From Anaerolineae bacterium (GTDB lineage: Bacteria; Chloroflexota; Anaerolineae; Aggregatilineales; Phototrophicaceae): a stretch of DNA of 64,000 nt. The stretch lies in assembly GCA_022843745.1 (NCBI GenBank), contig JALHNB010000001.1, forward strand, positions 152,019 through 216,018, read 5' to 3'. Shown in pieces: positions 31,866 to 37,533 of the stretch (position 1 is its first letter; each line of letters starts with the position of its first letter). A program made the translations under genes and the position numbers. The notes beneath the pieces were generated by a model. It searched no databases and was not told the DNA's origin. It saw only the letters and a program-made list of their open reading frames with translations.

Positions 31866-32002
31866 TGTGTTTATCAATTGGGACTAATTTGCGTTTTGTC
31901 GTATACTTGTAAATGTGGCGCGGTGGAAATGTCATTCCATCTTTTGCGCTGTTCATAACACACCACGGTTGGCTTTACTCACCGATTGGAGGACCAGGCA
32001 CA

Positions 32003-32635
32003 ATGCCACCTGAGAAAAGCGGATATTACTATCCCAACAAGTTTGCCCGTATTACCGTCGAAGCGATGGAAGAAATTATGGGCAAGAATGGTCTGAATGC
32101 TATTCTGAACTTGGCCGGGCTAGAGAATCTTATCGACAATTATCCCGCAGATAACCTGGAAAAAGGCTTCGATTTTTCCAATTACACCGCCTTAAATGTG
32201 GCGCTGGAAGAAATGTATGGGCCGCGCGGCGGGCGTGGTCTGGCGCTGCGTGCGGGCCGCGCAACCTTTGCGCAGGGCTTGAGGGCATTTGGTGCGCTGG
32301 CAGGTGTCGGCGATCTGGCATTTAAGGTGCTGCCTCTCAATGCCAAGCTCAAAGTCGGTGTTCCCGCCATGGCGAATATTTTCTCGCAGTTTTCTGATCA
32401 GATTTCGAATGTGTACGAAGAAGGCAACGATCGTATCATCTACACACTGGAACGCTGCCCAATGTGTTGGGGACGCACGGCGGATAAACCCGTCTGCTAC
32501 GTTGGTCAGGGTCTGCTGCAAGAAGGTCTGCGCTGGGTTTCTGGCGGTCATGAGTTCAAAGTCGATATGTCAACCTGTATCGCCAAAGGCGATGACATGG
32601 GCCGATATGTCGTCTACAAAGAACCTATTGGTTAA
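32003..32635 (+). CDS. V4R (4-vinyl-reductase type) domain protein
   Basis: A 210-residue protein starting MPPEKSGYYYPNKFARITVEA. The second half matches the V4R domain: RCPMCWGR, a Cys pair and the ending GGHEFKVDMSTCIAKGDDMGRY, with Cys/His residues fit to bind a metal or small hydrocarbon ligand. V4R domains occur in BchJ and in XylR/PoxR-type sensors. No photosynthesis genes are near, so a ligand-binding or sensing role is more likely than bacteriochlorophyll synthesis. The ATG at 32003 has GGAGG 10 bases upstream. Confidence 0.75.
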   Translation: MPPEKSGYYYPNKFARITVEAMEEIMGKNGLNAILNLAGLENLIDNYPADNLEKGFDFSNYTALNVALEEMYGPRGGRGLALRAGRATFAQGLRAFGALAGVGDLAFKVLPLNAKLKVGVPAMANIFSQFSDQISNVYEEGNDRIIYTLERCPMCWGRTADKPVCYVGQGLLQEGLRWVSGGHEFKVDMSTCIAKGDDMGRYVVYKEPIG

Positions 32636-34086: not shown

Positions 34087-37000
34087 ATGATAACAAATGT
34101 GCTAATTATCAATCGGCAACTGGTTTTTGCGGTCACGATCAAGCAGGCGCTTGAGCAGACCGGCGCTTTTGAAGTTCACCCCTTTACATCGGCGGATGCT
34201 GCGCTTGATTTTATCCGTTCGCATCCCCATGATGTAGCACTGGTCGATTTTACCCTGCCCGATGGCCCCGGCATTGTGCGGCGGTTACGAGCGCTCCAGC
34301 CGGATATTGCTGTGATTGTCAGCCCAAATCAGCCTAATTCAGGCGCATTGATTCGCGAGTTGGGTTTGCAGGGCATGATTGAGGCGCCTTTTAGCGCCCG
34401 TGCGATTATTCCGTTGATCGAACATGCTGTCGAACAGATTGAGCAGCCATTAACGGCGATTACACGCAGCCTGAATGCCTCGGATGATCCGTCATCGGGC
34501 GAGACAGAACTGCTGAGTGGTGGGCAGCTTGATGCGCTGGTTGATGAGACGGAATACCGACGCTCTCAGGGACAGCAGCCACGCAGACCCAAAAAAGATG
34601 AACCCATCGAGAATTTTCCCGTCACACGAAATCTGCCGGAGCAGCTTCCCTCAACAAATATTCTGAACTACGATGAACAAGTCGAAAACCTGCCCGTCAC
34701 GCGAAACCTGCCGGAGCAGCTTCCACCCACACGCATTCTAAATACTGACGAACCTATCGAAAATCTCCCCGTCACGCGAAATCTGCCGGAGCAGCCTGCA
34801 TCAGACATACCAGAGTGGCTTCAGAATCAGGATTTTGAACAGCCAACGCTTTGGGGTTTTGACGATGAAGAAGACGATGAACCAGATTTCGACCCCACTG
34901 CGGAAAGCAAAAAGACACAGCTTTTTGACGATAATGTGTCAGACCCGGATTGGTCGCCATCTGTTCCAGAGTTTTCGACCCTGGATAGCATCCTTTCGAA
35001 TGTCGCACCCTCAGAAATGTTCGAGCCAAAGGTTTCAGATGAGGACACGCCTTCCGTGCCGAGCGTGGACTCCAGCGCGGTACGGCAATTTTTAGCGACC
35101 AAAGCCCCCGCCAGCGACGATGTTTTTGGGACGGTTCTTGGTAACATTCCCGAAGAATCGGCTGCTGCCAAGCCGAAGTCCGATACCTTTGAAGACCTCG
35201 TGAAGTCCATGCGTGGCGATAAAACGCACACGCCTTTGCCAGATCGTCACCAGCAGTTTATTGATTTCATTCTCACGGGCGGCATGGATAATTTGCTGAC
35301 CGAAATCGAAAAACATAAAACTGGCCCGCTGCCATCTTTGGAAGATGATGATGACGATAGTGAGCCTGTGTTGGTGGTACCTGCTGCTCCGCCAGCACCG
35401 CGCGAACTTTTCGATAAACTGGCGCAGGAAGAACCGCCCATGCCGACGCTTGAGGAAAGCGGAACGGTTGGCGATCTGATGATAGGAGTCAGTGACACAG
35501 GCTTTCGCAATGTTCTGGCGATGATGCAAGGTGAGGAAGTCGTAGAATCGGAGTTTGAATCCAGCGAACAGGCGCTTACTGCTCGCGACATTGACGAAGC
35601 ATTTAGAAATTTTTTTGATCAGGAAGTCGCGGTAGAGACCCCCAGAATAGAGATGGATATTCGGCCTCTACCTGCGCCTATCATCGAGCCGCGTGAAGAA
35701 TCGCCAGCGATACCCGCTCAGTTAATCCTGGAAACCGCGCTCGATGAAAGTACACCCATCGATTCATTCTCGTTGAGCGATCTGATCGATAATATCGAAC
35801 GTCAGCTTTCTGAACATACACCAGACATTCAAGCGCCACCCTCGTGGGGGATTGCCAATATCCCACGCCCCAAAGTGGATGATCGGTATATCAAAGAGCC
35901 GGATTTTCTGCCGGAAGAATTTCCAAGCGGTAAAACGATTCAGAAATTACCGTCGTGGCAGGAGGATGAAGACTCAATAGCCGCACCTGTGCCTGGAGTG
36001 CCTGCCGCAGAGATTGATTGGGCTGCTCTGGATGAACAAGCTGATGAATATGACGACGAAAGCCTGAATAAGCCGCCTGTTCAGCAGCCGTCCTTGCTGG
36101 ATACCGTCATGTGGGATGACCTGGCAACGGCTCATGAATATGACGACGAAAGACAGGACGAACCTGTAGAAGCTGCTCAGTATGTGTCGCCATTAGACTC
36201 CCGACTTTGGGATGATATGGCGGTGGTGAACGAGTATGACGAGGAAAACCCCGAAGCAGCGTCGGAAATCGAACAGCCACCCGTGCTGGATATGGGCATG
36301 TGGGATGACCTGTATGAGTCCCAGGAATTTGAAGATCAAAATCTGGATGAGCCAGCCGCAGCGATTGAGGACTCATCCGAACTGGACTCCGGCCTTTGGG
36401 AAGATGTAGACCAAGTAGCTGCCTATGATGAAAATATTGAAGAGGATGTAGAGGCGTTCGAGAAGCCCCCTGTATTAGAGATGGGCATGTGGGACGACCT
36501 TTATGATGCGACAGTTCAGGGTGAGGCCTGGAGTGATGAGGTAGCCGAATCCGATGATCTTTCGCCTGAACTGCAAGCATGGAACACGCCGCCGACAAGC
36601 ATTCCGGTAGACATGACGATTGACGAAGCTGTCAGCGATGAAACCGTGATGATGCAGCGCACTGAAGCTATCGACCTCGGTCAGATGGCGGATTTTGAGC
36701 CGTATCCCAGCGAAATGAACGTTGTCGGTGATGATCCCTATATTGCTCAAATCGCTCTCAGTCTGACCCAGGTTTCACTTGAATTGACGGCTGAGGCGAC
36801 CATCCTGACTCATAGTTCCGAAATTGTTGCCTCTGCCGGACAGCTTTCAAGCGACGAAATTGCGGAATTTGGCGTGGTTGTCAGCGACGATTGGAGCGCG
36901 GGGCCGGACGAATCGCGCATCCGCTTTATCACGCTGCCGAGCAGTGGCAAGGGGTACATGCTGTACTCTCGCAGGACAGCGGGCGATTTTACACTATCAA

Positions 37001-37533
37001 TGATTTTTGCCGATTCAACGCCCTTGCGCGACATCCGCCGTCAGGGTAAACGCTTAACCGAAGCGCTTGACTCTGTACCCGATGTCCCCCCAGCGCCAGT
37101 TGTCAGTGTTGTTGATACAGCAGAAGTCGCGCCCGTATCTGTAACGCCCAAACTTGCTTCACAGCCGGATATTCCGCTGATGCCCTATGCTTACGTGTGG
37201 CTGCTGCGCGATGGCACCGTACACTTTAATGAGAACATTTCGCGGGCAATTCGCGCCGGTTTAACAATGCAGCTTCGCGAACAGGGCTGGCAAATCAAAA
37301 ATCTTGAAGCGCATGACGAGTATATCTATCTGGTAGCCGATGTCCCTGGCGAACAACCTGCCCATGAAATCGTGAGTGAACTTAAGCGGCGTGCTGGCGA
37401 AATCGCCCATATGCAGGATTCGTCGTTCGTCCCTCACTCGATGTGGGCAGATAGCTATCTGATTATGACACCCGGACGCGAACTGCATCACGACGAAATT
37501 GACCAATTTATCCAATTTGAACGGATGTTTTAG
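34087..37533 (+). CDS. Pseudo-receiver / roadblock-like / IS200-TnpA-like signalling protein
   Basis: A 1148-residue cytoplasmic protein. Residues 1-120 form a CheY-like receiver: Asp is kept in VALVDFTLPD, but the N-terminal acidic pair (LIINRQ) and conserved Lys (GMIEAPF) are missing. Residues ~170-880 are acidic and low-complexity, with three ENLPVTRNLPEQ repeats and about five W-D-D-L/M repeats (MWDDLAT, LWDDMAV, MWDDLYE, LWEDVDQ, MWDDLYD). Residues ~882-997 resemble a roadblock/LC7 domain. Residues ~1034-1148 resemble the Y1 transposase of IS200/IS605: a YAYVWLL start, then DEYIYLVADV where TnpA has its His-x-His, and DEIDQFIQ where TnpA has its catalytic Tyr. The histidines are Tyr here and the tyrosine is Phe, so it should be inactive. 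I infer a regulatory or nucleic-acid-binding scaffold. psd follows with a one-base overlap. Confidence 0.7.
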   Translation: MITNVLIINRQLVFAVTIKQALEQTGAFEVHPFTSADAALDFIRSHPHDVALVDFTLPDGPGIVRRLRALQPDIAVIVSPNQPNSGALIRELGLQGMIEAPFSARAIIPLIEHAVEQIEQPLTAITRSLNASDDPSSGETELLSGGQLDALVDETEYRRSQGQQPRRPKKDEPIENFPVTRNLPEQLPSTNILNYDEQVENLPVTRNLPEQLPPTRILNTDEPIENLPVTRNLPEQPASDIPEWLQNQDFEQPTLWGFDDEEDDEPDFDPTAESKKTQLFDDNVSDPDWSPSVPEFSTLDSILSNVAPSEMFEPKVSDEDTPSVPSVDSSAVRQFLATKAPASDDVFGTVLGNIPEESAAAKPKSDTFEDLVKSMRGDKTHTPLPDRHQQFIDFILTGGMDNLLTEIEKHKTGPLPSLEDDDDDSEPVLVVPAAPPAPRELFDKLAQEEPPMPTLEESGTVGDLMIGVSDTGFRNVLAMMQGEEVVESEFESSEQALTARDIDEAFRNFFDQEVAVETPRIEMDIRPLPAPIIEPREESPAIPAQLILETALDESTPIDSFSLSDLIDNIERQLSEHTPDIQAPPSWGIANIPRPKVDDRYIKEPDFLPEEFPSGKTIQKLPSWQEDEDSIAAPVPGVPAAEIDWAALDEQADEYDDESLNKPPVQQPSLLDTVMWDDLATAHEYDDERQDEPVEAAQYVSPLDSRLWDDMAVVNEYDEENPEAASEIEQPPVLDMGMWDDLYESQEFEDQNLDEPAAAIEDSSELDSGLWEDVDQVAAYDENIEEDVEAFEKPPVLEMGMWDDLYDATVQGEAWSDEVAESDDLSPELQAWNTPPTSIPVDMTIDEAVSDETVMMQRTEAIDLGQMADFEPYPSEMNVVGDDPYIAQIALSLTQVSLELTAEATILTHSSEIVASAGQLSSDEIAEFGVVVSDDWSAGPDESRIRFITLPSSGKGYMLYSRRTAGDFTLSMIFADSTPLRDIRRQGKRLTEALDSVPDVPPAPVVSVVDTAEVAPVSVTPKLASQPDIPLMPYAYVWLLRDGTVHFNENISRAIRAGLTMQLREQGWQIKNLEAHDEYIYLVADVPGEQPAHEIVSELKRRAGEIAHMQDSSFVPHSMWADSYLIMTPGRELHHDEIDQFIQFERMF

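Follow-up and report, generated by a model that had tools for sequence, protein, structure and literature searches.

The closest described relatives of the C-terminal domain analyzed here are the IS200/IS605 TnpA transposases (IS608, ISDra2 and SsoTnpA), which share with it a fold, an order of structural elements and a full-domain alignment that includes an invariant Trp. TnpA acts as a dimer that binds DNA hairpins. Another descendant of the Y1 transposases, TnpA-REP (RAYT), is likewise kept by its host in a single copy; RAYTs retain the HuH site and the catalytic Tyr, process REP hairpins and have been described as the first domesticated transposases of bacteria (PMC8266576). The middle domain has the same roadblock fold as MglB and the other roadblock/LC7 GTPase regulators. 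In Myxococcus xanthus, MglB works with RomR, a protein with a receiver, a Pro-rich linker and a Glu-rich region; the likeness to RomR is one of layout only, as RomR has been described without a roadblock or a transposase-derived domain (PMC12719032). Finally, the receiver-roadblock proteins of Anaerolineae families f50 and f16 (~260-345 aa) combine a receiver with the same roadblock family; they lack a Y1 domain and, in the five examined, do not lie beside polA.

The locus studied here lies in a window of 64,000 nt from an Anaerolineae bacterium (contig JALHNB010000001.1, positions 152,019 to 216,018), where an uninterrupted open reading frame encodes all of these parts in one protein. The reading frame, its length and the motifs quoted in the initial annotation are all exact. 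The features of the gene, in window coordinates, are:

34087..37533, + strand: complete gene of 1148 aa, present once in the genome (receiver, acidic linker, roadblock, dead TnpA domain)
34099..34410, + strand: receiver domain, residues 5-108 (Pfam Response_reg, 30.2-35.3 bits; family residue comparison)
34462..36726, + strand: acidic, Pro-rich linker, residues 126-880 (pI 4.05, net charge -139, 24% Asp+Glu)
34618..34795, + strand: 75-bp tandem repeat, in frame, 2.4 copies, within the linker
36739..37092, + strand: Roadblock/LC7 (MglB-like) domain, residues 885-1002 (AlphaFold element order; structural match to MglB 6h5b)
37183..37530, + strand: dead IS200/IS605 TnpA (Y1) domain, residues 1033-1148 (Pfam Y1_Tnp; PDB profile search; Foldseek; VIA-align)
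37321..37329, + strand: Tyr1079-Ile1080-Tyr1081, replacing the His-u-His metal site
37507..37509, + strand: Phe1141, replacing the catalytic Tyr
37519..37521, + strand: Glu1145, replacing the metal-site Gln of the Y---Q motif (motif per PMC6006769)

The C-terminal ~115 residues are homologous to the IS200/IS605 TnpA transposases, and sequence profiles and predicted structure agree on the TnpA fold that had been claimed for them. In particular, Pfam Y1_Tnp matches residues 1033-1143 of the full protein at 23.7 bits and the isolated tail at 28.7-29.8 bits (cut-off 23), and it matches 43 of 45 homologous tails (E <= 1). A phmmer search of the PDB with the single tail sequence has one weak match, TnpA 2f4f (E 0.41); when a profile of the 45 tails is compared with the PDB sequences, the top eight matches are all solved TnpAs (E from 2.7e-16 to 2.8e-8), the best match after them reaching only E 0.17. 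The profile alignment pairs the D-H-I-H-L of TnpA with the D-Y-V-Y-L of the family. Further, an AlphaFold model of residues 885-1148, covering the roadblock and Y1 domains, gives the Y1 part a pLDDT of 88-98 and the element order E-H-E-E-H-E-H. The Y1 part of the model matches TnpA and no different fold: the top 25 Foldseek matches in the PDB are all TnpA structures, and VIA-align superimposes it on TnpA 2fyx (Z 13.9, 120 residues, rmsd 3.1) and on TnpA 2ec2 (Z 13.9, 105 residues, rmsd 2.3). Since the identity to solved TnpAs is only about 14-18%, the likeness could be ascribed to a common alpha-beta fold without descent; however, the sequence profiles alone rank TnpA at the top and far ahead of any other match, and one f33 member (L106) scores 57.1 on the NCBI IS200 transposase equivalog (cut-off 55), which leaves this explanation with a negligible probability.

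The active site of the domain is lost. The initial annotation had called it catalytically dead, placing Tyr1079 and Tyr1081 at the metal-site His positions and Phe1141 at the catalytic Tyr; its numbering is exact, as the two Tyr fall on columns occupied by His in all 23 genuine TnpAs and Phe1141 aligns with the catalytic Tyr. An additional change is Glu1145, located where IS608 has a Gln, four residues past the catalytic Tyr, that belongs to the metal site (PMC6006769). The window protein has therefore replaced His, His, Tyr and Gln, in contrast to TnpA, and in contrast to the RAYTs its family is without the HuH site and built into a signaling fusion. The survey of homologues that the initial annotation had proposed for these changes covers 90 fused members (some same-genome records being counted twice), none of which has both His. 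In the window's order, the His columns are mostly Tyr/Tyr or Phe/Tyr and the catalytic Tyr column is Phe in 92% of members; in f33, the His columns are Tyr/Gln and the catalytic column is Tyr in 94%; in f40, the second His alone is usually retained. Because these lineages keep and lose different His and Tyr residues, the losses are, as read from the alignment, mosaic between lineages. The Tyr or single His that some relatives retain might suggest a domain that remains able to cut or join DNA through unusual residues, but no fused member has both His and all four residues are replaced in the window protein; the fold is then without the known metal site, and residual catalysis is highly improbable.

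Loss of the catalytic residues would also be expected if the tail were what is left of an inserted transposase, decaying after it had joined the frame by chance. The pattern of substitution argues strongly against such a remnant, which we consider scarcely credible: dN/dS of the Y1 domain (Nei-Gojobori, last 118 residues, close pairs, where computable) ranges from 0.02 to 0.21, Trp1120 is invariant in all groups, Pro1129, Arg1131 and Trp1068 are conserved at 97-98% in the window's order, and the reading frames are intact across many genera. The dead Y1 domain is maintained by purifying selection.

The other two domains named in the initial annotation, a pseudo-receiver and a roadblock-like domain, also hold up. 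The receiver matches Pfam Response_reg and retains the phospho-acceptor Asp54, but its acidic pair is Asn9-Arg10 and its conserved Lys is replaced by Ala, making it probably a pseudo-receiver; because of these two changes, classical phosphorylation is doubtful. The roadblock segment has the AlphaFold element order H-E-E-H-E-E-E-H and an MglB-like fold by model (Z 13.5 and rmsd 2.7 over 110 residues against MglB 6h5b); it has no Pfam match and is absent from the genome's 5 Robl_LC7 hits. Unlike MglB, this roadblock domain is part of a multidomain protein, and no GTPase gene is present among the window neighbors scanned. The genome does encode two small GTPases and five Pfam-recognized roadblock proteins, so that potential partners exist; none was seen next to the gene. 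The 755-residue linker between the receiver and the roadblock domain is presumed to be disordered. Downstream of its 75-bp repeat, near residues 736 and 799, it also carries two segments of the form PPVL(D/E)MGMWDDLY.

The fusion protein is a vertically inherited, single-copy signaling protein of the class Anaerolineae. A roadblock-plus-Y1 query is matched in 50 of 61 genomes, comprising the window's own and relatives of the same family and order, and the window's genome has one copy only of the fusion gene. A narrower alignment search returned 27 loci, whose named records are mostly Chloroflexota, Anaerolineae, with one labeled Aggregatilineales; a single-protein scan of genome contigs returned zero relatives. 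In the class-wide search, the fused architecture also occurs in other families, namely f33 (~420-590 aa), f40 (~370-445 aa), f39 and f55, and the phylum-wide search adds f59. Outside the class, the matches listed for a phylum-wide sample are mostly short, TnpA-sized frames with a few roadblock-only frames, and none has the fused architecture. Unlike TnpA, the Y1 domain is thus found fused into a large protein and in single copy; the multiple or patchy copies of a mobile element are absent, and the gene sits in conserved neighborhoods in most relatives. Two f33 proteins (L107 and L108, ~420-430 aa) keep the roadblock and Y1 domains without an N-terminal receiver, so that the lineage may be able to do without this domain. 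A contig titled as a Bacteroidetes MAG (L137, JAPUDW010000104.1) has the fused gene with polA after it, as in Anaerolineae, and may be misbinned or mislabeled.

In an IQ-TREE phylogeny of 88 domains, a branch with 100/98 support parts all 65 fused rows from all 23 TnpAs; the tree was built from 126 columns with limited sampling of TnpAs, is unrooted and places f40 on a long branch. It fits a single ancient capture of a TnpA, without proving one. Together with purifying selection, the tree agrees with the earlier claim of a domesticated transposase domain.

The gene neighborhood agrees with vertical inheritance of the fused gene. A fused gene was counted as adjacent when it lies up to 700 nt upstream of polA on the same strand. 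Of the order members, 53 leave enough room for this call, and 31 of them have the gene directly upstream of polA; so do 7 of 7 f33-type members, whose families are not part of the window's order. In an annotated example, the downstream neighbor is DNA polymerase I by Pfam. A single capture is compatible with this adjacency, which the window's order shares with f33. In relatives (L105-L111, L035-L072 and others), the pair is often accompanied by a gene that we label argF and, farther along, by a TPR-like protein of ~770 aa. This polA block is broken in the window, whose genome has polA on another contig and psd-pssA downstream of the fused gene instead; psd-pssA was dropped as a functional lead, being seen in only one of the relatives retrieved (L126). 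Upstream of the fused gene, much of the window's family has in common an SH3/CARDB protein, an uncharacterized reading frame and a MiaB-type gene. A conserved neighbor reading frame of 240 aa at window positions 31913-32635, shared across much of the family, has no Pfam match at E 0.01. Near three receiver-roadblock proteins without a Y1 domain (L119, L120 and L121), within about 0.6-4 kb, there is a gene that we take from its sequence to be dnaA-like. The window protein matches no defense system in PADLOC.

Charge separates the lineages. The Y1 domains of the window's order have a median pI of 4.7 and a net charge of -7 (pI 5.2 and -8 for the window's own), compared to a median pI of 9.2 and a net charge of +3 for TnpAs, 9.3 for the pI of the window genome's own TnpA and a median pI of 9.0 for the fused domains of f33, although whole-domain charge is a coarse proxy and a local basic patch could persist. 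Because the domain is acidic in the window's clade and TnpAs are basic, nucleic-acid binding appears unlikely there, and a putative dimerization or protein-interaction role beside the roadblock domain is favored. Of the roles suggested in the initial annotation, dimerization or protein interaction thus gains from the charge data; DNA or RNA binding does not, at least in the window's clade. The basic domain of the sister lineage f33 may still bind DNA.

The best explanation as a whole, to which we assign a probability of about 0.6, is a single ancient TnpA capture whose dead domain became a dimerization or partner-binding module in a signaling hub. A TnpA would have been captured once, long ago, and in the window's clade its dead domain would act by its fold and not by chemistry, dimerizing or binding a partner and thereby pairing or positioning the roadblock domains. 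These would bind a Ras-like (MglA-type) GTPase, and the receiver would be read through protein contact or through a weak, non-classical phosphorylation. The whole protein would then serve as a hub, like RomR and MglB together in Myxococcus.

The frequent polA neighborhood could hint at a DNA-related role. Accordingly, an alternative is that the dead Y1 domain still recognizes a hairpin of single-stranded DNA or RNA without cutting it, that the protein couples the state of replication or repair to signaling, and that the link to polA reflects this role. The adjacency counts point in that direction, as do the f33 domains, which are similarly basic to TnpA and mostly keep the Tyr; however, the domain is acidic in the window's order, polA lies elsewhere in the window's genome, and neighborhoods can be inherited without function. 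We consider this alternative unlikely, though it deserves more weight than the other alternatives to the best explanation. A reading that gives each lineage its own outcome stands at about even odds: one capture took place in a common ancestor from which several lineages of Anaerolineae descend, where the TnpA was fused to a receiver-roadblock protein beside DNA polymerase I and became a non-catalytic signaling module. This module later diverged, staying basic in one lineage, where it perhaps binds hairpins, and becoming acidic and protein-binding in another.

A literature search of titles and abstracts, with most subscription journals outside its coverage, found no description of a roadblock-Y1 fusion. 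A 2018 survey of the Y1 superfamily set aside unexpectedly long fusion proteins (PMC6006769), and such cases could therefore have stayed hidden. The family would be a domesticated Y1 transposase, but a non-catalytic one inside a signaling protein, with a function that we infer. If this is true, a bacterial Y1 transposase has been domesticated for its fold alone. A fold kept and an active site lost across many genera and families would show that bacteria also put transposases to use as components without catalysis, in this case in a setting that looks like GTPase-type signaling. Moreover, fusion genes with the dead domain may be labeled as transposases during annotation. For example, the f33 gene at L106:5774-7420 passes the NCBI transposase equivalog despite having Tyr-Leu-Gln at the His-u-His position; as it lies above the cut-off, genes of this kind risk receiving the transposase label.
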